From assembly GCA_030055525.1 (NCBI GenBank), contig JASFYJ010000008.1, forward strand, positions 1-64,000: 64,000 nucleotides of DNA, read 5' to 3'. Below are positions 6,787-18,041 of the stretch, in pieces. Within the stretch, counting starts at the first letter, position 1. Each line of letters starts with the position of its first letter. The position numbers and the translations under genes are program-made. The notes beneath the pieces were generated by a model. It saw nothing but the letters and a program-made list of their open reading frames with translations. It ran no database searches and was not told the origin of the DNA. Source of the stretch: Archaeoglobales archaeon. GTDB taxonomy: Archaea > Halobacteriota > Archaeoglobi > Archaeoglobales > Archaeoglobaceae.

Positions 6787-9297
6787 TCATTCAGCCTTTT
6801 CCTCCTCTACTGCTATTCCTGACTGCCTTAAAGCTTCCTTAACCTTATCTTCAAGCTCGGATTTGCTCAACTCGCCATCGCTTGCTTTGAGCGAAACTTC
6901 AATCTCAAAAGAACTGAATTTTCCCTTCAGAAAGTATACGAGCTTTACCACATCGGAAATCTTCGTTGGAGGGACTTTTAATCTGTATTCAATGGATTTT
7001 ATTGTTTCTTCACGGATTTCTTTCTTAACAGGTTCCCTCTCTTCTTTTTCTTTCCCTTCCTTAGGCTTTTCTGTTATCTTTTGTTCCTTTTGTTCAACAA
7101 AGAGCTCGGGCTTAATTATAATCTCCTCTTCTCTCAGCTCCACCTTCGGCTCCTTCTTAATCGCTACGAACTCAAGCTTTTCGCCCGTTAGATAGCCAAA
7201 GCCAAAAAGCCCCGCTTTAACGCCCTCTTTGATACCTTCGATGAATCCTTCTTTCGTTAAAATCCTGAGCTCTCCTGGTGTCGTAAGAAACGCTCTGTAA
7301 AGCTTTGAAATTTCAAGATAATCTCCCCTAAGAAATCTGTCCTTCAAAAGCTTTGCTGAGATTTTCTCGATGATCTCTCCTTCCCCCTTCAACCTCTCAA
7401 AGATTTCGCTTTCAAGTTCCTTCTCGCCGTATGACGGTATTCCGAGATCTATCTCCCTGAATCCATCCTTCTTTGGCAGATACAAACGCCTATACAACCG
7501 CCTTAGTTCCTCATAAATTCTGTTCTCGAAATCCTTCAGCTTCTCCTGTAAAACTTTTCTCTGCGAATCTGTAAGCCTTAGCATTCTATCATCTTTCAAA
7601 GACCTTAAAGCAATTAAAGTCCTCAAAAATCTTGAAAAATGCTCTTCGTAGCCTTTATCCCTGCAAAGGAATATAAGAGTGTTCCTGTAAACTCTCGGAG
7701 TCTCACCATTTCTTTCCACAAACTCTTGCTCGGGTTTTTCTTCCTTTAGGATTACAAGCTTGAGATCCTCAGTATCGGGAATATCGCGGGAAGATTTAGG
7801 ATGGATTATAATTTTGAACCTGCTTGCCTTTTTTAGAGCATCTTTTAAGATTTTGAGCTCTTCTTCATAGATCTTCTCTTCAGTGACATTTTCTTCTCTC
7901 GTTACGATTATGCGATTCAGGTTTGGCTGGTTAGTGAAGTAAAAGCCCTCATCGGACAAATAGAACAGCTTTTCTCTAATACCATTTATTACGGTGTCCA
8001 CCACGTTGCTTGGAAACTCAGGATAGCAGACACTCAGCTTTATTTCACGAACATTAACTCCTTTTTCACCTCTTCCAGAAAATGAAGTCATGAATATCGT
8101 TGTTGCAACCGCAGTTCCAAGTCTGTAAGCCGAGTAAGAAGCTCCAAGGCTCTTATCGACTTTTTTTGATCCTGAATCGTTTGAAGTTATGTCCTGAGCA
8201 ACTACACTGTCCCACTCTTGTCCTATATGCTTGATCAGCTCCCTCCTTACTTCGTTGTTGTTTAGATCGAAATCCGCAAGACGAATGAAGGGAACATTTT
8301 TGTCAACAAGGTTATGGATCACAAGCGACAACAGCCTTAAAACTCCTCTTGTCCTCTGAAAGGTTGGAAATGAACCCCACCTTTTGTAAAGAACGTCTAT
8401 TACTTCGGGTTTGAATGGAAAGCTTTTCAAAAATCTCTCCCTGTAAGCTGAAATCTCGTCGTTTGTGAGCAAATTTTCCCTCTTTGCGTAGTCTATGAAC
8501 TCCTCTACAGCAATTCCGACTTCTTTTTCATCAACCCAGCTGAATAGTCTTGCTCTAACAACCTGCTCGATTTCGTCGTCTTCAACAGGATTGTAGATCT
8601 TTTCCATCCTTCCTGCGATTTTCTGTAGCTGTTGGAAAGCCCTTTCCGCATTTTCATCGTAGTGCTCAAGAACGCTTGATGGCAAAGTTATCACAAGCAT
8701 CGCATTACCTACGCTTGCAACTGCAGACATCAGCTCTTGCAAAAAGGCAAGTGTTTGAGCTCCAAGATTTGAATCTCCCACTTTAATAGCGGATGCTTTT
8801 GTTATGTATTGCAGCACTTCATCCATAAGGATTAACAGTGGTGAGTTTTCGGAAATGAGTTTTATCAGCTTTTCCTTGCCCGGTGGTGCTTCTCCTCTTG
8901 CTATATCGATCTTTCCAGTTAACTGTTTTTCGAATTCTTCCCAAAGTCTAACTTCAGCGCTAAGCGCGGTTCCATCAAATACCAAAACTTTTGCATTCCA
9001 CTCCCTTGCCCTGTGATATAAAGCTATAAGAGCATGTGTTTTTCCTCCGCCAAAAGGAGTTTGAAGCTGAACAACCGCATCCCCTGTTTTGCCAAGAAGC
9101 CTGTTTTTAGCAACTTCTATCAGATTCTTAAGCCCTTTTGTTAGATAAGTTTTCCTAAAGAAAAGTTCAGGATTTCGATACTCTGGCGGAGCGTTACCAA
9201 ATGCAACCTGCCAGAGATCTGCTGCAAAAACATCCATTGTAAGCCTTCCTTCAAGAATGTCATCATGAGGTCTTACAATCTGCGTGAAGGGTTTCAT
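6787..9297 (-). CDS. DUF499-type AAA+ ATPase of the defence operon
   Basis: Large P-loop ATPase of the DUF499/COG1483 type that accompanies DUF1156 methylases in archaeal defence islands. The Walker A region reads TPFGGGKTHALIALYHRA; Walker B is SPLLILMDEV. Start choice: a TTG at 9324 is possible, but the ATG at 9297 (MKPFTQIVRPHDDILEGRLT) lies behind GGGAGGGAAGGTG and is preferred. The C-terminal part has a Lys/Glu-rich linker (VEQKEQKITEKPKEGKEKEE) followed by a small terminal domain of about 80 residues. It is the last gene of the operon, 57 bases after the methylase C-terminal gene. Role in restriction is inferred from family and context. Confidence 0.85.
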   Translation of the reverse strand: MKPFTQIVRPHDDILEGRLTMDVFAADLWQVAFGNAPPEYRNPELFFRKTYLTKGLKNLIEVAKNRLLGKTGDAVVQLQTPFGGGKTHALIALYHRAREWNAKVLVFDGTALSAEVRLWEEFEKQLTGKIDIARGEAPPGKEKLIKLISENSPLLILMDEVLQYITKASAIKVGDSNLGAQTLAFLQELMSAVASVGNAMLVITLPSSVLEHYDENAERAFQQLQKIAGRMEKIYNPVEDDEIEQVVRARLFSWVDEKEVGIAVEEFIDYAKRENLLTNDEISAYRERFLKSFPFKPEVIDVLYKRWGSFPTFQRTRGVLRLLSLVIHNLVDKNVPFIRLADFDLNNNEVRRELIKHIGQEWDSVVAQDITSNDSGSKKVDKSLGASYSAYRLGTAVATTIFMTSFSGRGEKGVNVREIKLSVCYPEFPSNVVDTVINGIREKLFYLSDEGFYFTNQPNLNRIIVTREENVTEEKIYEEELKILKDALKKASRFKIIIHPKSSRDIPDTEDLKLVILKEEKPEQEFVERNGETPRVYRNTLIFLCRDKGYEEHFSRFLRTLIALRSLKDDRMLRLTDSQRKVLQEKLKDFENRIYEELRRLYRRLYLPKKDGFREIDLGIPSYGEKELESEIFERLKGEGEIIEKISAKLLKDRFLRGDYLEISKLYRAFLTTPGELRILTKEGFIEGIKEGVKAGLFGFGYLTGEKLEFVAIKKEPKVELREEEIIIKPELFVEQKEQKITEKPKEGKEKEEREPVKKEIREETIKSIEYRLKVPPTKISDVVKLVYFLKGKFSSFEIEVSLKASDGELSKSELEDKVKEALRQSGIAVEEEKAE

Positions 9298-9354
9298 GAG
9301 CTTCACCTTCCCTCCCTGGATCAAAAATTTTTAATTTCCTACTTTATAAAGTTT

Positions 9355-10602
9355 TCATTCAAATAGCTTCTTCTGCCTTGTTTTCACATCTTCAGCTTTC
9401 TCCTTCATGTCACTTATCAGCCTCTCTTTACCGCTCAGAAATCCATCGAGAAGCTTTTTCTCTGCACTTTCCAGTGGCAAAATTTCACTTATTGCCTGAG
9501 CAACCCGATAAAAAGCTTCCTTTAGCCCATATCCGCTCTCGCTAAGCACCTCCTTCATCTCATCCTTTCTTCCAGTTTTCCAGAGCAAAAGGACTTTGTG
9601 AAGAACATCTATGAGCTCATTACTCCTTATTTCGTCAATCTTCCTATCCTGTGGCCCAAGAACCCTTATAAATTCCTTCTCTTTCTTTATAAATCCCCTG
9701 TCCCATTCCCTTTCAAGATCTACTCCTACACTCTGAGCGAGCTTCCTCGCATCGTCAAAGTGAATTTTAGCTTCACCAAAGCTCCAGCGATAAAGAAGAT
9801 AGAACCTCGTGAGCGATGAAAGCTCTCCTGCGATTCCATTCTGTATAATTTGTCTAAACACATAATCCGTAACGATTTCCCGCACGATCTCAATCATCTT
9901 CCCCGCTGAGACTTCATTTCCTTCGTAGTCCATGATCTTGCGATACTTTCCAAAAACCTCTATTGATGAGCCAATAGCAGAAATAAAGAAGTCAGATCCG
10001 CTTATTCCTTCCTTCCAAAGCTCTTCGAGCTTTCTTGGCAATCTTTTGTTCAGCTCTTCCTTAACTTCGCTCAACCATCCAACTTCTTCCCTTTTCATTT
10101 TCCTGCAGACGAAGTAGATAGAAGATGCGAGAGCTGCAGATTCTTTTGCTCTAAGCCTTGCCTCCATTTCTGTATCGATTGGCCAAGTCGCTGTGGGAAC
10201 GAGATCTGAATCGAGCAAGGAATTTATCAGAGTCTCCCAGCCGGCTGTGGATTTATGAGTGTAAACGATCACCGCTATTCCGTTTGGTTTTAGAACCCTT
10301 GAAATCTCTTTAAACGCTTTTTTGAGCATATCTTCAAAGAACTTCTTTCCCTCTTCGTAACCACCCTGATGCGAGTAGGCAACAATCTCTTTCGACTTCG
10401 GAGTTAAAGGAGTTGCAAAAAGCTCTGGGTAAAGGTCTCCGATTGTTCTTTTTAGCCAAACGTAAAAGAAATCGGAGAGATACGAATATGGAACGTTGTC
10501 GTAGTATGGCGGATCCGTAAAGACTGCATCAAAGTAGTCGTCAGGAAAAGGTAACTCGGTTGCGGAAGCCTGAAGCACGCTCGGAATTTTCATCGCCTTC
10601 AT
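9355..10602 (-). CDS. DUF1156-type DNA methylase, C-terminal half (catalytic DPPY part)
   Basis: The second half of an adenine-specific DNA methyltransferase (COG1743 type). Motif IV, DPPYYDNVPYSYLSDFFYVW, lies at residues 30-49, and a Rossmann-like segment follows (ISRVLKPNGIAVIVYTHKS). SAM-binding motif I is absent; it is in the separate gene at 13049-14503. The N-terminus begins just before the conserved QASATELPFPD stretch, so the break falls in the linker that joins the halves in full-length relatives. A GGAGGT sits nine bases upstream of the ATG, so this half is probably translated on its own. Both halves would need to assemble for activity. Confidence 0.85.
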   Translation of the reverse strand: MKAMKIPSVLQASATELPFPDDYFDAVFTDPPYYDNVPYSYLSDFFYVWLKRTIGDLYPELFATPLTPKSKEIVAYSHQGGYEEGKKFFEDMLKKAFKEISRVLKPNGIAVIVYTHKSTAGWETLINSLLDSDLVPTATWPIDTEMEARLRAKESAALASSIYFVCRKMKREEVGWLSEVKEELNKRLPRKLEELWKEGISGSDFFISAIGSSIEVFGKYRKIMDYEGNEVSAGKMIEIVREIVTDYVFRQIIQNGIAGELSSLTRFYLLYRWSFGEAKIHFDDARKLAQSVGVDLEREWDRGFIKKEKEFIRVLGPQDRKIDEIRSNELIDVLHKVLLLWKTGRKDEMKEVLSESGYGLKEAFYRVAQAISEILPLESAEKKLLDGFLSGKERLISDMKEKAEDVKTRQKKLFE

Positions 10603-10721
10603 GATCTTTCAACCTCCCGTTTTATTTCCACAAATCCGGCTTGAAAAGCTCCATTAAGATTTGCCCTGATCTTTTCAACGATTACCACCTGATTTAACAT
10701 CAAGTTGGAATCGCTTAGCAT
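10599..10721 (-). CDS. Possible 40-aa ORF overlapping the methylase C-terminal gene
   Basis: A short minus-strand frame runs from ATG 10721 (or ATG 10700) to a TGA overlapping the next start in ATGA (10599-10602). The peptide is mostly helical and charged (QVVIVEKIRANLNGAFQAGF, then VEIKREVERS). The tight ATGA coupling and use of the GGAGGT within its own 3' end suggest it feeds ribosomes to the methylase half. It may be a leader peptide, a small subunit, or a relic of the interrupted methylase. No family recognised. Confidence 0.4.
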   Translation of the reverse strand: MLSDSNLMLNQVVIVEKIRANLNGAFQAGFVEIKREVERS

Positions 10722-10753
10722 GTTAATATCGCTTTGCGTTTTAAACTAATTTC

Positions 10754-10798
10754 CACATGATGTGTTAAAACTTAAATATGTGGATTCACACAAATATT
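10754..10798 (+). promoter_or_regulatory. Promoter/operator of the RHH-PIN module
   Basis: CACATGATGTG (10754-10764) is an 11-base palindrome, followed by a TATA-like CTTAAATATG at 10771-10780 and a further inverted pair TGTG-GATT-CACA at 10780-10791. The TATA box is about 25 bases from the ATG at 10799, implying a leaderless message. Palindromes around the TATA box fit autorepression by the ribbon-helix-helix antitoxin. Confidence 0.45.
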
Positions 10799-11077
10799 AT
10801 GCCAAACATCACTTTGTCCATCCCGCCCGAAGTTTATGAGAGGATGAAGAAGTTCAGAGAAGTGAAATGGAGCGAGGTTGCAAGGAGGGCGATAATCGAA
10901 TACCTTGAAAAACTCGAGAAGGGGACGATTTCAGGGGAAGAAATAACAAGAATGCTCGGAAAAGACTTCAGGGAGGCGGTTGAAAAAACGGGGCTTGAGA
11001 AATACGAAGAATACTATGAGAAGTCAAAGGTGGTGGAATGGGAGAGGATGCGATCCTTTACGACACGAACGAAATGA
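10799..11077 (+). CDS. Ribbon-helix-helix antitoxin (VapB-like)
   Basis: DNA-binding antitoxin predicted to neutralise the overlapping PIN toxin and repress the pair. The N-terminus MPNITLSIPPEVYERMKKF is a typical RHH strand-helix, followed by WSEVARRAIIEYLEKLEK (second helix). The C-terminal tail is charged and helical, as expected for the toxin-binding part. An upstream ATG at 10778 exists, but the TATA box covers it, so 10799 is preferred. It overlaps the toxin gene by 40 bases. Confidence 0.8.
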   Translation: MPNITLSIPPEVYERMKKFREVKWSEVARRAIIEYLEKLEKGTISGEEITRMLGKDFREAVEKTGLEKYEEYYEKSKVVEWERMRSFTTRTK

Positions 11078-11370
11078 TAAAAGCAATGAAAGAGGGCAGA
11101 AAACTAAAAGGTTTCACCACGATAATCAATCTGATCGAATTTCCAAAGGGGGTTATGCTTGATCTGAGCATCATTGTCCCCTCGCTCAGGGATTACGCGC
11201 TCGCTCTCGAAATCTCGCAAAAGATGGTAGAAAACGGAAGTCTCATTCCTACTTCTGACCTGATCATCGCAGCTGTTGCTCTAAACAACAATCTAACCCT
11301 GAAAACAGGGGACAAGCATTTTCTTGCTATCAAGAAAAGCTATCCTTCGATAAAACTCGAAATTGGCTGA
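11038..11370 (+). CDS. PIN-domain ribonuclease toxin (VapC-like)
   Basis: Predicted Mg-dependent ribonuclease. PIN acidic residues are visible: YDTNEM (first Asp), INLIEFPKG (Glu), PTSDLIIAAVAL (Asp) and TGDKHFLAI (Asp). At 110 residues it is at the short end for PIN toxins, lacking part of the middle helices. It overlaps the RHH antitoxin in the +1 frame, the arrangement usual for vapBC. It points away from the flanking methylase halves, so it is not part of the defence operon transcript. Confidence 0.82.
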   Translation: MGEDAILYDTNEMIKAMKEGRKLKGFTTIINLIEFPKGVMLDLSIIVPSLRDYALALEISQKMVENGSLIPTSDLIIAAVALNNNLTLKTGDKHFLAIKKSYPSIKLEIG

Positions 11371-11488
11371 AAACTCATAGGGGCTTATAGGTTCGACAAT
11401 TTTCTGTAATTAAGCTGTTCAGAGTCCCAAAATAGTGGCTTTTACTTCTCAAAAGCTCTAAAGTCGCAAATTCCTTATTAACTTCGCT

Positions 11489-11947
11489 TTAATGCCAGTT
11501 AGGTTGAATTTTTTTGCTCTCTACGCAAATTTCCTCCTCGCTTAGAACTACATTGCCTTTTCCAAGTTTTTCAGCAAATTCCTTGAGCTCCCTGTCTCTT
11601 GTAAGCAGTTTAATTCCGTTTTCATCCGCTGTGAAAAGCAAAAGCAGGTCAATGAAATCTCTGAACTCACTTTTTAGCTTCAAAGCCATTAAATAAGCTT
11701 TAATGCCCGCCTTAGCTTCTTTAAGATTTTCAAAAATGGATTGCAAACCCAGAGCAACGACTTCTTCATCGTAATTCATCTTTGCTACTTTTGCAATTAT
11801 TTCGAGGATGCTGAATTCAGAATAGTAAAACTCAGCCTTTTTCGATTTTCTCAGCCATTCAAGGGTCTCAAGAATTTTTTCTGAATTACTAACAGAAACT
11901 CCAACAGCAGGCAGAAAGTAAGTGGAATCAAGAAGAATTTTCACCAA
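11489..11947 (-). CDS. PIN-domain ribonuclease toxin (VapC-like), second module
   Basis: 152-residue PIN protein. Acidic sites: LLDSTYFLP (first Asp), FSILEIIAKVAK (Glu), EFRDFIDLLLLFTADENG (Asp) and LLTRDRELKEFAEKLG (Asp). The N-terminal strand-Asp-helix pattern is canonical. It overlaps the upstream AbrB-type antitoxin gene by 20 bases and converges on the first PIN gene. Toxicity and RNA target are inferred from the family. Confidence 0.8.
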   Translation of the reverse strand: MVKILLDSTYFLPAVGVSVSNSEKILETLEWLRKSKKAEFYYSEFSILEIIAKVAKMNYDEEVVALGLQSIFENLKEAKAGIKAYLMALKLKSEFRDFIDLLLLFTADENGIKLLTRDRELKEFAEKLGKGNVVLSEEEICVESKKIQPNWH

Positions 11948-12179
11948 AGATCTCCTCCTGGAACTTCATCGATTCTCTTTCAAATTCCTCGAATGTAGTT
12001 TCAGCAAACTTCTTTCCCTTCAAACCAAGAGCAAAAGGACTTTCAATAACTTCCGCAACAAGCTTTCCCTTCTCAACCCTCAGCCTTAGCCAGCTCCCTT
12101 CCTCTATTCCGAGCTTTTCTGTTATCTCTTTTGGCAAATAGATCGTCCTTTTCTTTGTTACCCGGACTCTCGCTTCCAT
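11928..12179 (-). CDS. AbrB/SpoVT-type antitoxin
   Basis: 83-residue protein with a swapped-hairpin AbrB domain: VRVTKKRTIYLPKEITEKLG followed by IEEGSWLRLRVEKGKLVAEV. The C-terminal half (FALGLKGKKFAETTFEEFER) is the expected toxin-binding extension; the FALGLKG element is common in archaeal AbrB antitoxins paired with PIN toxins. It overlaps its toxin and is divergent from the next module, separated by an 83-bp intergenic region that holds the palindromic promoter. Confidence 0.82.
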   Translation of the reverse strand: MEARVRVTKKRTIYLPKEITEKLGIEEGSWLRLRVEKGKLVAEVIESPFALGLKGKKFAETTFEEFERESMKFQEEIFGENSS

Positions 12180-12228
12180 AAACTAACTCAGATTCAATCT
12201 TTAAGAATTTTTCTGAGATTCAGTAGAG

Positions 12229-12247
12229 AAGTATTTAAATAATACTT
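12229..12247. promoter_or_regulatory. 19-bp perfect palindrome over a TATA box
   Basis: AAGTATT-TAAAT-AATACTT is a perfect 7+5+7 inverted repeat. Its centre is A/T-rich and about 25 bases upstream of the ATG at 12263, so it doubles as the TATA box of a leaderless message. This is a strong autorepression operator candidate for the RHH-like protein encoded directly downstream. Confidence 0.6.
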
Positions 12248-12262
12248 AAGTAAACTTTAATT

Positions 12263-12580
12263 ATGGGCGTGTTGACGATAGTGCTTGACGATGAGACTGA
12301 AAAAGAGCTAAGAAAGCTTTTGAGAGATAAGTTTGGAAAGGAGAAAGGAGAAATCTCTAAATTTGTCGAAATTGCAGTCAAAAATTACATTCAGGAGCTA
12401 AAGAGAGAAGACAAAATCTACTTTGCCTTTAAGGGCGAAGAAAAGGTTGCGGAAGCTAAAAGTCTTGAGGAGCTCGTTAAAACGCTGAAAGAGAAGGGTT
12501 TCGATTTTAGAGGTCTTAGAATTTTGCGCTCAGATTTCAAACAGGAGGCGAGGTTTGGAGTTAGACTCAAAAAACTATGA
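12263..12580 (+). CDS. RHH-like putative antitoxin/regulator paired with a retropepsin-like protein
   Basis: 105 residues. The N-terminus (GVLTIVLDDETEKELRKLLR ... KFVEIAVKNYIQELKRE) has the strand-helix-helix pattern of ribbon-helix-helix proteins. The C-terminal half (KIYFAFKGEEKVAEAKSLEE, then LVKTLKEKGFDFRGLRILRS) may form a separate alpha/beta domain. Its stop overlaps the start of the next gene in ATGA, so the two form one module. A perfect palindrome covers its TATA box. The role as antitoxin or repressor is inferred from arrangement. Confidence 0.65.
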   Translation: MGVLTIVLDDETEKELRKLLRDKFGKEKGEISKFVEIAVKNYIQELKREDKIYFAFKGEEKVAEAKSLEELVKTLKEKGFDFRGLRILRSDFKQEARFGVRLKKL

Positions 12581-12960
12581 AGTTCTTTCCACTCGTTGAG
12601 TTTCCCTGTCTGGGGATAAAAGTCGAGAATGCATTTACAGGCAAAAGGTATCCCGAAAGTGGAGAAGTGGTCGCAATAATTGACACTGGCTATGAGGGTT
12701 TTTTAATGCTCCCCGAAGACATCTTCACCCAACTCGAGTTCTCAAAGCTCTCGATGAGCGAAAGAACACTTTTAATGCCCGATGGAAGGATTTTAAAGAC
12801 GAAAGGCACTTATGGCTTTGTAATTGTAAACGATTATCGAGTCGACGGATTTATTGAAACTTCCGAAATTGGCGAGGTCATTCTTGGCTTGGAGTTCCTT
12901 TCAAACTTCCGCATCACCTTTGACTTTTGCCTAAAAAGGCTCGAAATTGATACTTGCTGA
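12577..12960 (+). CDS. Retropepsin-like (clan AA) aspartic protease family protein
   Basis: 127-residue protein with the aspartyl protease signature AIIDTGYEGFLMLPEDIF (DTG at residues ~37-39). A second hydrophobic segment, GEVILGLEFLSNFRITFDF, resembles the ILG-containing C-terminal strand of retropepsins. It matches the small archaeal clan AA DTG family that occurs beside RHH-type genes. As in retropepsins it would act as a dimer with one DTG each. It is translationally coupled to the RHH-like gene. Whether it is a toxin, or cleaves its partner, is unknown. Confidence 0.75.
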   Translation: MKFFPLVEFPCLGIKVENAFTGKRYPESGEVVAIIDTGYEGFLMLPEDIFTQLEFSKLSMSERTLLMPDGRILKTKGTYGFVIVNDYRVDGFIETSEIGEVILGLEFLSNFRITFDFCLKRLEIDTC

Positions 12961-13048
12961 AAATTTATATCGAGATTTTTGCACGAACTTTGGCTCTGCT
13001 AAAAATAACAATAAATTTTATAAAATCGTTTTGAGATTTTTCAATCCT

Positions 13049-14503
13049 TTACGGGTTTATGCTTGTAAGGTGCTCGAGAATTTTGGTGTAATAGTAATCA
13101 TGTATCCTTTCTAAACTTCCTGATCCACCGCTAAAGGGATTGAGTTCAACAAAATCCCAGATCATCGGGAGCGCTTGACGGGAGAAAACATCGGCAATTA
13201 ACTCCCTTGTAGTTTCCCACCTACCCAAAGTATTACAGGAAGCTACAACCATATCCACAGCAAGAGCTAAATAACTCACGACAGCTTTAGCAAACTCCTC
13301 ATCCATGCCTTCAGCAATCATTTTGCTGTAAGCATTTCTGACCTTCTCAGCAAAGGTTATCAAAGCAAGCTTCTGGCGTGAGTTGAAAAGGTCTCCCCAC
13401 TTATTCATACCGTAAACCCAAACGTTTATAACACCGAAAGACACGGGAACCCTAACTAACGGTTCATCAGGCACGGGGTCTATTCCCCATTCTTCCATGA
13501 GCTTTGCCCTCTTCTCCTTGAGGTATTCTTCCGCTTTTCTGTAGGCATCGATGTCTTTTTGCGTTGCAATCCTGTAAATTTTTCCTTTTTTGCTGTTAAG
13601 CACAACCGCTATCATTCTCTGCCCGCTTTTTCCCTGCTGGAAAAGCTTTCTGACTGTTTTGTCGTCAACAGTTGAACCGCAAACCAAGCAGTTCGCAACC
13701 GCTCTCGCAACAGTCCCTTTCTCCGGATTGAAATTTGCAGGCATCTCTTCGTAGCCATCGCCAACGATCTTGAACTTCACTTCTCCGCCTTCAACGAAGG
13801 GCATTAAGGCAATTTTCTTCTTATCCTTCTTTGCAAGCCAGAATTGACGCATTAAAGGAATCTCCGCGTTGCAAGAAGGATTCTGGCATGGAATCGTTCT
13901 CGCCCATATGTAGCCAACTGGAGCCATCTTTTCCTTTTTGTTCTCCATTTCAAGCGACAAAGCATTGCTTTCAAGCTCATCTTCAGGATAAAAATCCTTC
14001 AGCTCCTTCCTCGCCTCTTCAAGAACCCATTCTCCCCATTTCTTGACTTCATCAACGAGCTTTTTCCCAAACTTCTGCGGATACTCAAGAGTGCACTTAA
14101 GAATCAACACCGCAACTGGATTGTATTCCACTGCAAAAACCTCGCACCCAAGCCTCAAAGCTTCAAGCGGAATCGAACCACCACCAGCAAAAGCATCTAA
14201 GACTTTCGGAGCCTTTCCATTTGCCTCAACTATGTCTTTTCTCGCCTTCTCAATTATATGCTTATTCAGAGAGTTCTCCCACTTCGCAAGCTCTATAATG
14301 AACTGCTTTCTCTTCTCCCACTCTTCAACGTCTCCAACCGCAGGAATCAGCGCCGCATAACTCGTCGCCCTTGAAGCTGCCAGAGGTCGCCTTGCCCACC
14401 AGATGTGCAAAGTCGAGATATGCCCATGGCGAATGTTCTTTTCCTTCCTTGAGATCTCGCTCACTTCTTTTATTGGAAAACTCTCCTCAATGAATGCCCT
14501 CAT
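13049..14503 (-). CDS. DUF1156-type DNA methylase, N-terminal half (SAM-binding part)
   Basis: The first half of a COG1743-type adenine methylase. The DUF1156 signature GHISTLHIWWARRPLAASRA is at residues ~27-46, SAM motif I (VLDAFAGGGSIPLEALRLGC) at ~101-120, and a zinc ribbon is formed by IPCQNPSCN and ANCLVCGST. The protein ends with LEHLTSINP, just before the point where full-length relatives continue into the catalytic DPPY half; that half is at 9355-10602. Its ATG overlaps the stop of the acylphosphatase-like gene. Alone it lacks the catalytic motif, so activity needs the other half. Confidence 0.85.
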   Translation of the reverse strand: MRAFIEESFPIKEVSEISRKEKNIRHGHISTLHIWWARRPLAASRATSYAALIPAVGDVEEWEKRKQFIIELAKWENSLNKHIIEKARKDIVEANGKAPKVLDAFAGGGSIPLEALRLGCEVFAVEYNPVAVLILKCTLEYPQKFGKKLVDEVKKWGEWVLEEARKELKDFYPEDELESNALSLEMENKKEKMAPVGYIWARTIPCQNPSCNAEIPLMRQFWLAKKDKKKIALMPFVEGGEVKFKIVGDGYEEMPANFNPEKGTVARAVANCLVCGSTVDDKTVRKLFQQGKSGQRMIAVVLNSKKGKIYRIATQKDIDAYRKAEEYLKEKRAKLMEEWGIDPVPDEPLVRVPVSFGVINVWVYGMNKWGDLFNSRQKLALITFAEKVRNAYSKMIAEGMDEEFAKAVVSYLALAVDMVVASCNTLGRWETTRELIADVFSRQALPMIWDFVELNPFSGGSGSLERIHDYYYTKILEHLTSINP

Positions 14504-14676
14504 AAAATCCCTTCTTCAGGCTTTTTGCTTTTCATAAATTCAAGAAATTGCTCAACCTGTTCTTTTTCATTTCTTGCATTAAAGCATGGAATTAAAAACG
14601 AGTCAGCTTCTTCAAGTAAAAACAAGCGATAGCCAACGTTGCAAACCTTGCCCCTGATCCCCATACTGAAAGCCAT
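14500..14676 (-). CDS. Acylphosphatase-like mini-protein
   Basis: 58 residues from ATG 14676 (a TTG at 14682 would add two). The segment IRGKVCNVGYRLFLLEEAD matches the phosphate-binding N-terminus of acylphosphatases (G-x-V-x-x-V-G-x-R). Relative to a normal ~90-residue enzyme, the central strands after the conserved Asn (NAR) are largely missing, and the helix EQVEQFLEFMKSKKPEEG follows at once. It overlaps the methylase start by four bases, so it belongs to the defence operon. Either a trimmed acylphosphatase fold with a binding role or a relic; assignment is inference from motif. Confidence 0.6.
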   Translation of the reverse strand: MAFSMGIRGKVCNVGYRLFLLEEADSFLIPCFNARNEKEQVEQFLEFMKSKKPEEGIL

Positions 14677-14735
14677 GACCAATCTTTACTTGGATTCTTA
14701 AAAAAATTTTCTGTGAAAAGCTGTTTTTTGAGATT

Positions 14736-17700
14736 TCATCTTTCAGAAAATCCAAGCATCCCCGCGGACTTCCACTGCTCCTTCGGAACTATGAATCTAA
14801 CTATGTCCACGACTTCCTGAACTTTCAGGTTTTCCGCAGGATTCCTTATCAGGTAAAGCTTAGGAGCTGTTAATGCGTTGGCGACGATGTAGAGCCAGTA
14901 ATCGTTGCCAAATCTCTTAGCCTTGAACCATTCGTTCGGAGTCAATGCTACATCGCCCTCATCAGCCCTTGCCTTGACTTCGATGTATCTTATTTCACCC
15001 GCTCCCTTAGACCTTATGTCGAAACCAAGATTCAAAGCTGAGACATCTTCCGGCTCCCTGCCACTCCTTCTTTCAAATTCCATCGCAATTTCCATACCAA
15101 TTCTCTCAACCTCTTCACTCGCAACAACTTCACTTTTCTCTGGCAAAACCCTTATAACTGTCAGAAGTTCAGGAGTTCTTATCGACAAATTCCTTTCGAG
15201 CTCTATTTCATCAGCAAGTTTTTTTATTGCCTCCTCATATCTTCTTTTCTGTTCTTCTTTGTTCCTTATCGGCAAATCAACCTTTTCTCCTCTTGCCTGC
15301 CTCTCGTATAGCTCAGAAAGCTCAAAGTCAAGCTGTCCAATCAAATAATCGAGTGATTTCAGACCATACTTCTTCTTTACTTCTGCCTGTCTTTCCCTTT
15401 CCATCGAAATCTCTACCTTGTATTTTTCGAGAACGTCCAAAACATATGGCAATAGCTTCTTTTCATCTTTAAATGCCTCAAAATTTCCGCTTTCAGGCTT
15501 TAAATCCCAGATAATCGCGGGATTTATCTCCTCAATCCTTTCCCCTTCGTAGATCGCAATTATCTTCCTCCCAGCAATTTCTCCCTTTCCATCGAGAACC
15601 TCGCCAATGTAGAAGTGAATGAAGCCATTTAGCCTTCCAGAAGGATCCTTGAAAACCGCTCCTCTCTTCACTTCCTCGCCATGCTTTCTGATCACCCATT
15701 CAAGCAACGCCTCAAACAACGGATGCCCAAAAGAGATGAATTCAGCATCCGGATTCTTAAAAGCAACTTCCTTGTCAAATGTAGCCTTTGGATACCTCCT
15801 CATTAGAATGCCATACCTGTTCTTAAAATCCACGCTTTCAGCTATATCCCTGAGCTCTGGAGGAATAGAATCAATTTCAATAAAGCCATCTTTTCGCCTC
15901 ACTTTTCCGCCAGCCTTCGTAAAGGCTCTCACAAAGAATTCCTCAACGTATTCAGGGATCAGCCTGTATTCCCTTGCTTTTTCAGTCATTTCCCTTATCC
16001 TCGTATAGTCGATAAACTTCGTTGCCAAACTCTCGCCGAGGATCTGCTTTATCCTTGAGATATACTCCTCATCGGGCTTTATGTCGAGTTCACTCAGAAT
16101 TTCGTCAAGCGTTTTAGCATTCGTCACAGCTTCAACGATCAGCGTATACAAATCCTTGCCTTCAAAGATTTCGCCAATTATGTCAAAAACTTTATCGCTT
16201 CCAAGCTTCTCCCTTATCTCTTCAAGTTTTTCAAGTAGTTTTGCTAAAACTTTTCCCTCCCTTGTATCCACAGCGACGAGGTTGAAGATGTAGACGTCCT
16301 TTAGCTGTCCATATCTGTGAATTCTCCCCATTCTCTGCTCGAGACGATTTGGATTCCATGGGATGTCGTAGTTTATCATTATGTGGCAGAACTGTAGATT
16401 TATTCCCTCCCCTGCAGCCTCAGTTGCAACCATTATTTCCGTTTCATCCTTAAAAACCTTCTCAGCCCTAATCCTTTCATCGATGCTCATTCCGCCGTGT
16501 ATGAAGTTAACCTTGTATCCCCAGCTTCTGATCTTCTTTACAAGGTATTCGAGCGTATCCCTCGACTCTGTAAAAATCAAAATCTTTGGATTGCCTTCGA
16601 TTTCTTTTATCTTCGCAAATCCCTCCTCAATTGCCTTTTTAAGCTCTTTCAGCTTAACTTCTTCGTCGCTATTCACGATTCTTTTCGCCTTCTCAATCAG
16701 TTCCTCAATTCTCCTTATTTCTCGCTTAAGCTCCTCAAAATCCTTCGCAACAGTTATAGCTTCCCATTCTTCTTCTCTTTTCCACCTCTCGCTCTCTTCC
16801 TCTTCCTCAATTTCTTCAATTTCAAATTCTATGGGCTCTCTTCTTTTCTCCTCTCCCTTTAATATCTTTTCAAGTCTTTCCTTTCTTCTCTCGAGTGATT
16901 TGAGCAATGCGAAGGTGCTTGATGCCATTCTTCTTTGCAAAATCAGCAAAGCAAATGCCACATTTCTCTTCTTCTCACTTTGCAAAGCCTTGTTGTATTG
17001 CTCAACCACGTATCTTGAGACTTCGTTGTAAAGCTCCTTTTCCTCCTCGGACAACCAGAACTTGATCGTCTTCGGAAATCTCCTTGTAAAGATTGGTTTT
17101 CCTTCGAAGTCCTTAAGATCTTCCTTTAGCCTTCTTATAAAAAGTGGATTGTCTTTATTCGCAAGCGATTCCTGAACCATTTCCTGCGTTGCAAAGAAGC
17201 CAGGAATAAGCAAATCCAAAAACAATCTGAAGTTCTCAGGATCTCCCTTGTGCGGGGTTGCGGTTAGGAATAGTAGATGAGTGGAATTCCTCGAAAGAAC
17301 TTCTCCAAGCCTGTATCGCTGGGTCCTTGAAACCTTTTCGCCATATTTGTAAGCAGCCATTTTGTGTGCTTCATCTACAATTACAAGATCCCAGTGCACG
17401 GATGAAAGCGAGGCTAATATGTCGTCTTGCTTTGCAAAATCTATCGAAGTTATGATTTGATCATTCTTCTCCCAAGGATTCTCGCCATAGTGAGCGTTGA
17501 ACGTGTTTCTGTCGAGAACAACAAAGCTTTCCTTAAATTTCTCATTCAGCTCCCTTCTCCACTGATCCTTCAAATGCCCCGGAACAACGATCAAAGTTCT
17601 TTTCGCAAGTCCTCGTAACTTCATTTCCTTTATAACGAGCCCCGCCATTATCGTCTTCCCCGCTCCCGGATCGTCAGCGAGCAAAAATCTAATTCTTGGT

Positions 17701-18041
17701 TGTTTTAAGATGTAGCCATACACAGCTTCGATTTGAAATGGTAGCGGATCTATTTTCGAAACGTTGACGGCAAGCAGTGGATCGAAAAGCGATGCATTTC
17801 TAAACCTTATCGCCTCGAGGAAATAGAAAGCATTCTCGGAATTTGCAGAAAAATCCAATCCGGGCTTCAAAATCTTAACCCTTTCCAGATCTTCCTTTTT
17901 AAGAATACGATCGACGAACTGCTTTGAATTGATCGTGTAACCTACGATCCTAATGCGATCCAAAATCGATTCAACTTTTTCAACCCTCACAGCCTCGCCC
18001 CAAAAAGGGCCACTGATTATACTACCTTCCTGGAGATTCAT
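14736..18041 (-). CDS. SNF2/DISARM DrmD-like helicase with C-terminal DUF3883 domain
   Basis: 1101 residues, first gene of the defence operon. Helicase motifs: I LADDPGAGKT (121-130), II DEAH (223-226), III TATPHKGD, the IV-V region (FIHGGMSIDERIRAEKVF, EAAGEGINLQF), and VI NRLEQRMGRIHRYGQ. Motif I reads DDPGAGKT, common in the HepA/DrmD subgroup rather than chromatin SNF2. A Glu-rich coiled-coil insertion sits between the two RecA lobes. The C-terminal domain has GFDIRSKGAG and YIEVKARADEG followed by LTPNEWFKAKRFGNDYWLYI, the D...ExK pattern of DUF3883, a possible PD-(D/E)XK nuclease fold. Predicted ATP-dependent translocase and nuclease acting on foreign DNA; activity untested. Confidence 0.88.
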   Translation of the reverse strand: MNLQEGSIISGPFWGEAVRVEKVESILDRIRIVGYTINSKQFVDRILKKEDLERVKILKPGLDFSANSENAFYFLEAIRFRNASLFDPLLAVNVSKIDPLPFQIEAVYGYILKQPRIRFLLADDPGAGKTIMAGLVIKEMKLRGLAKRTLIVVPGHLKDQWRRELNEKFKESFVVLDRNTFNAHYGENPWEKNDQIITSIDFAKQDDILASLSSVHWDLVIVDEAHKMAAYKYGEKVSRTQRYRLGEVLSRNSTHLLFLTATPHKGDPENFRLFLDLLIPGFFATQEMVQESLANKDNPLFIRRLKEDLKDFEGKPIFTRRFPKTIKFWLSEEEKELYNEVSRYVVEQYNKALQSEKKRNVAFALLILQRRMASSTFALLKSLERRKERLEKILKGEEKRREPIEFEIEEIEEEEESERWKREEEWEAITVAKDFEELKREIRRIEELIEKAKRIVNSDEEVKLKELKKAIEEGFAKIKEIEGNPKILIFTESRDTLEYLVKKIRSWGYKVNFIHGGMSIDERIRAEKVFKDETEIMVATEAAGEGINLQFCHIMINYDIPWNPNRLEQRMGRIHRYGQLKDVYIFNLVAVDTREGKVLAKLLEKLEEIREKLGSDKVFDIIGEIFEGKDLYTLIVEAVTNAKTLDEILSELDIKPDEEYISRIKQILGESLATKFIDYTRIREMTEKAREYRLIPEYVEEFFVRAFTKAGGKVRRKDGFIEIDSIPPELRDIAESVDFKNRYGILMRRYPKATFDKEVAFKNPDAEFISFGHPLFEALLEWVIRKHGEEVKRGAVFKDPSGRLNGFIHFYIGEVLDGKGEIAGRKIIAIYEGERIEEINPAIIWDLKPESGNFEAFKDEKKLLPYVLDVLEKYKVEISMERERQAEVKKKYGLKSLDYLIGQLDFELSELYERQARGEKVDLPIRNKEEQKRRYEEAIKKLADEIELERNLSIRTPELLTVIRVLPEKSEVVASEEVERIGMEIAMEFERRSGREPEDVSALNLGFDIRSKGAGEIRYIEVKARADEGDVALTPNEWFKAKRFGNDYWLYIVANALTAPKLYLIRNPAENLKVQEVVDIVRFIVPKEQWKSAGMLGFSER

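Follow-up and report, generated by a model that had tools for sequence, protein, structure and literature searches.

A DNA methylase gene of an archaeal Hma-type operon is split at a linker that recurrently holds toxin-antitoxin and other defence genes

Results

The Hma operon and its divided methylase gene

The window, a stretch of 64,000 nucleotides from an Archaeoglobales archaeon, carries on its minus strand co-oriented genes for a helicase, a DUF1156 methylase and a DUF499 ATPase, that is, HmaA, HmaB (in two pieces) and HmaC. The gene hmaA (14736..18041, minus strand; PADLOC HmaA, E 5.7e-205) encodes an SNF2 helicase ending in a NOV_C (DUF3883) nuclease-type domain (PF13020, 79.8 bits, cut-off 22.1), and its product is thus a predicted helicase-nuclease fusion. 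The gene hmaC (6787..9324, minus strand; PADLOC HmaC, E 3.4e-124) encodes a DUF499-type AAA+ ATPase, for which no Pfam match was obtained and the NCBIfam model DUF499_antiphage stayed below its cut-off. The same set of genes, with the helicase first, the methylase next and the ATPase last, makes up the Hma system of PADLOC, which corresponds to the Type-1 DUF499-centred BREX-related system. The available text on that system also describes a DUF1156 methylase and a helicase-nuclease (PMC12839542; PMC8565338), the fusion being reported there in 79% of taxa (PMC12839542). Judged by its gene content, the operon appears to be an Hma defence system (helicase-methylase-ATPase; Type-1 BREX-related), complete apart from HmaB being in two pieces. 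Unlike the usual Hma, in which HmaB is one polypeptide (a form not stated to be required), the window encodes it in two open reading frames 2,446 bp apart, with a toxin-antitoxin-like block in between.

The N-half of hmaB (13049..14503, minus strand; 484 aa) comprises the DUF1156 domain (PF06634, E 2.2e-22), motif I within DAFAGGGSIPLEALRLG, strands beta-1 and beta-2 and a zinc-ribbon/target-recognition part, and it ends in LEHLTSINP. The C-half (9355..10602, minus strand; 415 aa) runs from strand beta-3 onward and contains motif IV, DPPYYDN, in the context TDPPYYDN. A sequence-only reading had taken the two frames for complementary halves of one methylase, the second equipped with its own GGAGGT and ATG. 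Their coordinates, strands and motifs were reproduced on the sequence, as were the ribosome-binding-site-like GGAGGT (10612..10617, minus strand) and the ATG (10602-10600) of the C-half. On the PADLOC HmaB profile of 973 positions, the N-half lies within 9-551 (covering 9-187 and 218-551) and the C-half covers 571-875. Aligned to nine relatives with an uninterrupted protein, the two halves fall on neighbouring stretches, for example on 9-499 and 501-902 of a 905-aa protein (L213) and on 4-477 and 488-896 of an 896-aa protein (L172), with a maximum overlap of 2 residues (L095), so that they do not align to the same region. Compared with each other, N-half and C-half gave no match (best E 6.4). 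Because the halves cover full-length relatives adjacently and end to end, it can be ruled out that they are unrelated methylase fragments similar by chance. By sequence comparison, the two frames are complementary halves of one predicted HmaB/DUF1156 DNA methylase, with no part missing.

The cut lies in the linker immediately ahead of strand beta-3 in the methylase fold, leaving motif I with beta-1/beta-2 on the N-half and motif IV with beta-3/beta-4 on the C-half. In the structure model (pLDDT 88) it is predicted to fall in a loop (block pLDDT 74). Sequence searches returned no solved relative for either half, and the Foldseek matches were limited to generic SAM methyltransferase folds with weak E-values.

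A leader frame of 40 aa (10599..10721, minus strand) precedes the C-half, its stop codon overlapping the ATG by 4 nt (ATGA). The protein is identical in the genome of a sister species. No relative beyond that genome was found, and a relic of a toxin or antitoxin is unsupported.

The insert between the halves

The insert (10603-13048, 2,446 bp) contains three pairs of genes, two on the plus strand and one on the minus strand. Next to the N-half, a clan AA aspartic protease with a DTG motif (12577..12960, plus strand; TIGR03698, 62.6 bits, cut-off 57.35) is partnered by an RHH_6 protein (12263..12580, plus strand; PF16762, 31.8 bits, cut-off 27). The middle pair consists of an AbrB/MazE-type antitoxin-like protein (11928..12179, minus strand; PF04014, 28.5 bits, cut-off 24.7; TIGR01439 also above cut-off) and a PIN toxin-like protein (11489..11947, minus strand; PF01850, 37.3 bits, cut-off 23.6). 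In the pair nearest the C-half, an RHH (VapB-like) antitoxin-like protein (10778..11077, plus strand; NF050799, 24 bits, below the cut-off of 60) adjoins a second PIN toxin-like protein (11038..11370, plus strand; PF01850, 19.9 bits, below the cut-off of 23.6; a VapC model likewise below cut-off). The AbrB-PIN pair and, by weak models, the RHH-PIN pair thus have the adjacent antitoxin and PIN genes of a putative VapBC-type module. Describing the block as three toxin-antitoxin-like pairs was slightly too strong, because the third pair is RHH_6-aspartic protease and not a classical toxin-antitoxin; the description holds for the other two. No HEPN or nucleotidyltransferase gene was matched in the insert.

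Among the loci examined, DNA matches to the insert were confined to its own genome and that of the sister species, and the movement of one cassette between lineages was rejected on this ground. A single weak PIN match of 44 aa was found in one relative (L041), sited outside the linker, and relatives of the second PIN of the insert (35-42%) occur in eight further genomes of the family, never at hmaB. A promoter and terminator scan, of a kind poorly suited to an archaeon, gave no excess over shuffles.

Sister species and selection

A look for the same split in sister genomes had been suggested, and the sister species carries the same arrangement, which makes mis-assembly an unlikely source of it. 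Between window and sister, dN/dS was 0.125 for the C-half, where purifying selection is strongly supported (Fisher p 7e-8). For the N-half the value was 0.344 with one swapped 20-aa segment and 0.026 without it; in the accompanying test the site counts of the N-half without that segment were rounded by hand. For comparison, hmaA gave 0.095 and hmaC 0.091. By these substitution patterns, purifying selection has acted on the N-half as well as the C-half since the gene was cut in this species pair, and window and sister alike thus hold complementary halves that are both kept by selection, as in a two-polypeptide methylase.

How often and where the linker is cut

The continuous gene is the norm, being found at 102 of 134 classified loci; relatives thus do not always encode two genes without a cassette. 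A gap of more than 300 nt at the same linker was present at 15 of the 122 loci with both sides visible, a fraction that is not a prevalence because the regions fetched were deliberately those surrounding open reading frames some 400 aa long. Two further loci stand outside the split count, one with other sequence ahead of a shortened C-half (L166, G247) and one in which a deletion joins hmaA to the C-half (L210, G421). Further cuts of this linker occur in other genomes of the window's family, in another archaeal family, in Aquificota, in Bipolaricaulota and in the phylum of a Guaymas MAG. Of 15 loci on viral contigs, 14 run through the linker without a break, and the remaining one is truncated where its contig ends.

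The inserts differ between relatives. Most are HEPN-MNT modules, others ShosTA, DarTG or AAA ATPases, and two splits (G453 and G451) contain nothing but a coiled-coil gene that matched no family. MNT/HEPN genes were counted in 10 of the 15 linker gaps, with HMM seeds taken from loci later counted. Large gaps with MNT/HEPN genes also occur between hmaA and hmaB (3/45) and between hmaB and hmaC (9/42). Over all loci the linker exceeds both boundaries in such genes (p 9e-6 and 0.003); among relatives of at least 45% identity it is not above hmaB-hmaC (p 0.30). In split relatives the C-half frequently forms the final cistron of the inserted module, and in ten of them its start overlaps the stop codon of HEPN or MNT or sits 2 nt past it.

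The two-sided splits include five (n = 15) with broken halves; one of the 15 is cut by a contig end, and the window, itself intact, was not in the run. In a sixth affected split (L215) the C-half appears to be frameshifted around residue 35. By comparison, 10 of 110 other loci with both parts are broken. In other split lineages, then, the pieces are broken more often than continuous genes.

On a tree of 63 rows there are at least nine changes between split and continuous forms. A single origin of the split was rejected on a 44-row tree (p-AU 6e-43), and on 63 rows a common clade for the nine splits nearest the window was rejected (p-AU 0.0055), this set having been defined after the tree was seen. 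Some of the changes may be re-fusions, since a continuous gene (G028) nests among the splits; inside the closest clade, too, either direction may apply.

Discussion

Two histories had been proposed from the sequence alone: an insertion broke the gene and both pieces still assemble, or the enzyme evolved as a two-subunit methylase. The generality of the continuous form, the recurrent cut with unrelated inserts and the purifying selection together favour insertion with both pieces still working over a single ancestral two-subunit enzyme; assembly of the pieces stays a prediction. Cuts at the same spot in distant relatives, filled with other toxin-antitoxin or defence genes, suggest that the two pieces are able to function jointly and that modules nest preferentially at this position. 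We put at roughly 65% the probability that HmaB is a methylase of two polypeptides and that its linker repeatedly serves toxin-antitoxin and defence modules as a nesting site. The broken halves of other splits speak against full function in every lineage, and the two splits with a coiled-coil gene alone, like the possible re-fusions, also weigh against this reading. HmaB would be made as two polypeptides, with the toxin-antitoxin-like genes in the flexible linker ahead of beta-3. Since neither half alone has both motifs, the two most likely come together as a single functional modification enzyme, which would shield host DNA from the HmaA/HmaC restriction arm. For the modules the benefit would be a niche inside a gene whose loss is expensive, for the operon an addiction guard or a back-up suicide effector.

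The halves might work while the inserts are mere passengers, mobile modules landing anywhere tolerated with no guarding or regulatory role. This is possible, if somewhat doubtful: HEPN-MNT modules are described in the available text of PMC2701414 as mobile and frequent in archaea and thermophiles, PIN modules would behave alike, MNT/HEPN genes also occupy the gene boundaries, and among closer relatives the linker is no richer than hmaB-hmaC. However, the linker exceeds both boundaries in the whole set, and the C-half is tied to the module through gene overlaps in ten relatives. More tentatively, and with low expectation for the three parts taken jointly, the C-half could be a cistron of the toxin-antitoxin operon, so that the level of working methylase tracks antitoxin autoregulation; a drop in antitoxin under attack could induce C-half and toxin, coupling DNA self-marking to a suicide switch; and this design could have been reached repeatedly with HEPN-MNT, PIN-based and other modules. 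The count of broken halves makes this reading slightly less likely.

Broken halves in five relatives (G004, G019, G011, G023, G570), a frameshift in G451 and the presence of fragments only in some family members would fit an inactivated hmaB with decaying pieces, the operon being kept by its other genes or by the toxin-antitoxin modules. We consider this unlikely for the window, where, as in the sister, halves and motifs are intact and under strong purifying selection; the halves are intact also in L077, L209, L214, L245, L246 and L250. Excisable insertions within genes are known, such as that in sigK (PMC10745906, in the text available), and a full-length methylase could be restored by programmed or conditional removal of an excisable element, intein or intron. 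This is highly improbable here: the insert frames include no recombinase, its genes lie on both strands, each half has its own start and stop, no Rfam match was obtained and the window junctions bear no significant direct repeat (shuffle p 0.059). For the terminal repeats at eight other loci the lowest shuffle p was 0.028 (L036), uncorrected. The window insert thus showed no recombinase, terminal repeats or splicing element.

With HmaB read as a two-polypeptide enzyme, the locus would show a DNA methylase divided naturally, and repeatedly, within its catalytic fold, and it would mark an exact intragenic position at which toxin-antitoxin and defence modules nest in several archaeal and bacterial lineages. 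Such loci allow one to ask by experiment if nested modules guard or control the modification arm of a restriction-like system, and their cut sites are natural places at which to divide a methylase into two parts. Software for gene calling or system detection that expects a single HmaB may score such loci as broken.

No published description of splitting or nesting at the hmaB linker was found in the literature searched. Natural two-chain DNA methylases and fragment complementation do exist, and in M.AquI and M.EcoHK31I, as in HmaB here, one methylase consists of two complementary polypeptides (PMC3404938, in the text available). Those two are cytosine-C5 enzymes cut near motifs VIII-X, whereas HmaB is of the DPPY type, is cut before beta-3 and, unlike them, has its cut filled with other genes. 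HEPN-MNT (HepT-MntA), the commonest insert at the hmaB linker of relatives, is absent from the window insert. In the accessible part of PMC3710099, HEPN domains associated with restriction-modification are said not to be fused to methylases, and a table of the same source lists DUF86-family proteins as occasionally fused to methylase domains. Embedding of defences in immune operons is treated in work cited in the available text of PMC12988326. The Hma-embedded candidates (HEC) are likewise defence genes nested in Hma operons, and the insert of one relative (G414) matches HEC-02 models; in contrast to such nested defences, the nesting in the window lies within the methylase reading frame.

The divided methylase and its insert

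PADLOC assigned the genes surrounding the split methylase to an Hma (helicase-methylase-ATPase) operon, with HmaA at 14736-18041, HmaC at 6787-9324 and the DNA methylase HmaB present as two pieces, in a genome of 1.56 Mb. When checked in the sequence, both minus-strand ORFs (N-half, 13049-14503; C-half, 9355-10602) had the coordinates and motifs assigned to them by the sequence-only reading. On the HmaB profile of 973 positions the N-half covers positions 9-187 and 218-551, the C-half positions 571-875. The two had been described as complementary, and in all nine continuous relatives compared (9/9) they do cover adjacent parts. In one of these, L213 (905 residues), they align to 9-499 and 501-902; across the nine, the longest unmatched stretch between the aligned halves is 21 residues (L081) and the largest overlap is 2 (L095).

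The cut divides the fold. An AlphaFold2 model of the continuous homologue L081, obtained with 37 further rows (pLDDT 88, pTM 0.86), places it in a loop (489-498) between helix 478-488 and strand 499-502, where residues 491-500 have a mean pLDDT of 74. Among continuous relatives the length and sequence of this site are variable. The N-half holds strands 103-106 (motif I) and 124-129, the C-half strands 499-502 and 515-520 (motif IV), the naming being that usual for DNA methylases.

The stop-to-start distance between the halves is 2,446 bp. Of the three toxin-antitoxin-like pairs first read there, an RHH (VapB-like)/PIN pair on the plus strand (both below curated cut-offs) and an AbrB/PIN pair on the minus strand (both above) were recovered as such; the third, on the plus strand, turned out to be RHH_6 with a clan AA aspartic protease (both above). 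The C-half start codon is overlapped by, and coupled to, a 40-aa ORF; upstream of this comes the RHH antitoxin gene, which is divergent. A 60-aa ORF between hmaA and the N-half (14500-14682, minus strand) is placed in a similar way, with a 4-nt overlap at the start codon of the N-half.

Conservation in the sister genome

The halves are conserved in two species. A look at sister genomes had been proposed as a check; the sister genome G053 shares both the split and its cassette, with 97.7% DNA identity over the block, and its 40-aa ORF encodes an identical protein. The dN/dS of this pair of genomes was 0.125 in the C-half and 0.344 in the N-half; hmaA gave 0.095 and hmaC 0.091. One stretch of ~20 aa, present as another allele in the sister, inflates the N-half value, which drops to 0.026 once this segment is left out. 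Few changes underlie these values: 19.5 synonymous against 9.5 non-synonymous in the C-half, and 10 against 1 in the N-half minus the segment. Synonymous changes are nevertheless in significant excess (Fisher p 7e-8 in the C-half and 1e-3 in the N-half as a whole). The second PIN gene, with 1 and 3 changes, has too few to inform on selection. The exchanged segment (N-half residues 348-367; 13403-13462, minus strand) adjoins a low-confidence loop of the structure model; locus L045 of genome G023 shares the window's allele, and a third type occurs in G028 and G004. This stretch may determine specificity and have been swapped.

Distribution and recurrence of the split

We classified 134 loci, dropping search hits that duplicated fetched regions and excluding the window. 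At 102 of them hmaB runs continuously across the linker, the point of the cut, which contradicts the possibility that relatives always encode two separate genes without a cassette. A split with both halves together on a single contig was seen at 10, the C side alone at 12 and the N side alone at 3; 6 were partial and 1 had no usable match. Further searches added 11 loci; with these and the window included, both sides of the linker were visible at 122 loci, and 15 of these had gaps above 300 nt (the window, L034, L036, L037, L039, L045, L077, L165, L209, L214, L215, L245, L246, L248 and L250), a fraction that is no prevalence because short frames were deliberately sought.

By phylum, matches occurred in 38/392 genomes of the window's own phylum (E 1e-40). 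The phylum of an Aquifex MAG gave 12 matches in 11/136 genomes (1e-60): both halves of a split gene were seen in 3 and its C side alone in 2, 4 were continuous, 1 had a deletion and 2 ran into contig ends. That of the Guaymas MAG G392 gave 7 in 6/297 genomes (1e-80); 4 of the 6 inspected were split (one, G570, decayed) and 2 continuous. That of the Bipolaricaulota MAG G394 gave 10 in 9/100 genomes; one is a split seen with both halves, two are splits seen from the C side, and frame length or linker marks the remaining 7 as continuous. An N-half was looked for in G393 and G394 and not found. Two genomes carry both forms at different loci, G597 (L246 split, L247 continuous) and G829 (L250 split, L251 continuous), and would make natural controls.

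The cut is recurrent. A 44-row tree requires 6 split/continuous changes, and a 63-row tree (22 split) requires 9 (7 when partial and decayed rows are dropped). A single clade of all 13 split rows was rejected on the 44-row tree (p-AU 6e-43). A clade of 27 rows mixes both forms, and since the continuous gene of G028 is nested there among split ones, some of the changes may be re-fusions. Three Bipolaricaulota splits (support 100/100) and G570 lie outside this clade.

Genes within the cut

The inserts are diverse. MNT and/or HEPN genes were detected with home-made HMMs in 10/15 gaps. Pfam concurs at L036, L165, L037, L246, L248 and L250, on MNT only at L245 and on the MNT of L039 and L045; at L077 the MNT gene is frameshifted and matches weakly (E 0.029). 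Further contents are ShosA/ShosT next to MNT (G023), a fused DarT-DarG with HEC-02-like genes (G414), an AAA_15-type ATPase next to HepT-MNT (G004 and G019, below cut-off in the latter), and, in G453, a coiled-coil gene that no Pfam family matches, with a similar one in G451. Where only the N side was visible, the N-half is followed by HicA and a weak HicB-like neighbour (G031) or an AAA_15 gene (G040); on the C side only, the C-half is preceded by HEPN (G867; weak match at L099) or MNT-HepT (G445, G022, G007).

As controls, large gaps elsewhere in the operon held MNT/HEPN in 3/45 cases between hmaA and hmaB and in 9/42 between hmaB and hmaC. Over the whole set the linker is richer than either (Fisher p 9e-6 and 0.003, respectively); among relatives of at least 45% identity it exceeds hmaA-hmaB (p 0.009), and the difference from hmaB-hmaC is lost (p 0.30). 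The whole operon is therefore colonised by HEPN-MNT modules, and the hmaB interior is one among their sites. Archaea and thermophiles are in any case rich in modules of this kind (PMC2701414). MNT-HepT pairs also lie at the hmaA-hmaB/hmaB-hmaC boundaries of L035 (9360-9994) and L168 (3825-4465), and between hmaB and hmaC in L082 and L252; in L035, L082 and L252 hmaB is continuous across the linker.

Gene overlap is frequent. The C-half ATG overlaps the preceding HEPN/MNT stop by 4 nt in L036, L038, L039, L077, L211, L246 and L248, by 14 nt in L099 and by ~23 nt in L249 (L039 and L248 being decayed); in L037 it follows after 2 nt. L077, L246 and L248 have a 4-nt overlap at the other end as well, between the N-half stop and the first gene of the module. 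The module lies 13 nt from the C-half in L245 and ~100 nt in L165 and L250, and tight coupling is absent in L209, L214 and L215.

Possible consequences of the nesting

We propose that the two halves associate to form one methylase. Fragment complementation and the natural two-chain methylases M.AquI and M.EcoHK31I, which a two-part HmaB would resemble, offer a precedent (PMC3404938). The nested modules would gain persistence because the restriction arm would make loss of either half costly, and they may act as guard, regulator or back-up effector. No description of a split HmaB was found in the parts covered of the literature on Hma/BREX-related systems, HEPN-MNT modules and embedded defences (including PMC12839542, PMC12988326, PMC8565338, PMC3710099, PMC2701414 and PMC3404938).

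Decay after splitting

In a lenient frame test of 14 two-sided splits, the window excluded, both halves were intact in 8, broken in 5 (L036, L037, L039, L045, L248) and cut by a contig end in 1; L215 scored intact, yet its C-half appears to be frameshifted around residue 35. The 110 other loci that have both parts comprise 80 intact ones, 20 interrupted by contig ends and 10 broken ones. Split genes therefore break more often (5/14 vs 10/110). Assembly errors may account for some of the breaks; the decay is genuine in G011, G023 and G570 at least.

Remnants were also observed. L174 (5791-6096, on the contig of L102) is what is left of an additional C-half, spanning residues 8-106 at 68% identity; a complete, continuous hmaB follows ~5 kb downstream. 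In L210 (7190-9078, G421) a deletion has fused the initial portion of hmaA with the hmaB C-half, next to an hmaC in two pieces. Within the window's family, L040 (G007), L041 (G018), L042 (G016), L043 (G024) and L044 (G006) retain hmaB fragments only, and those of G007 and G016 still adjoin a HepT end.
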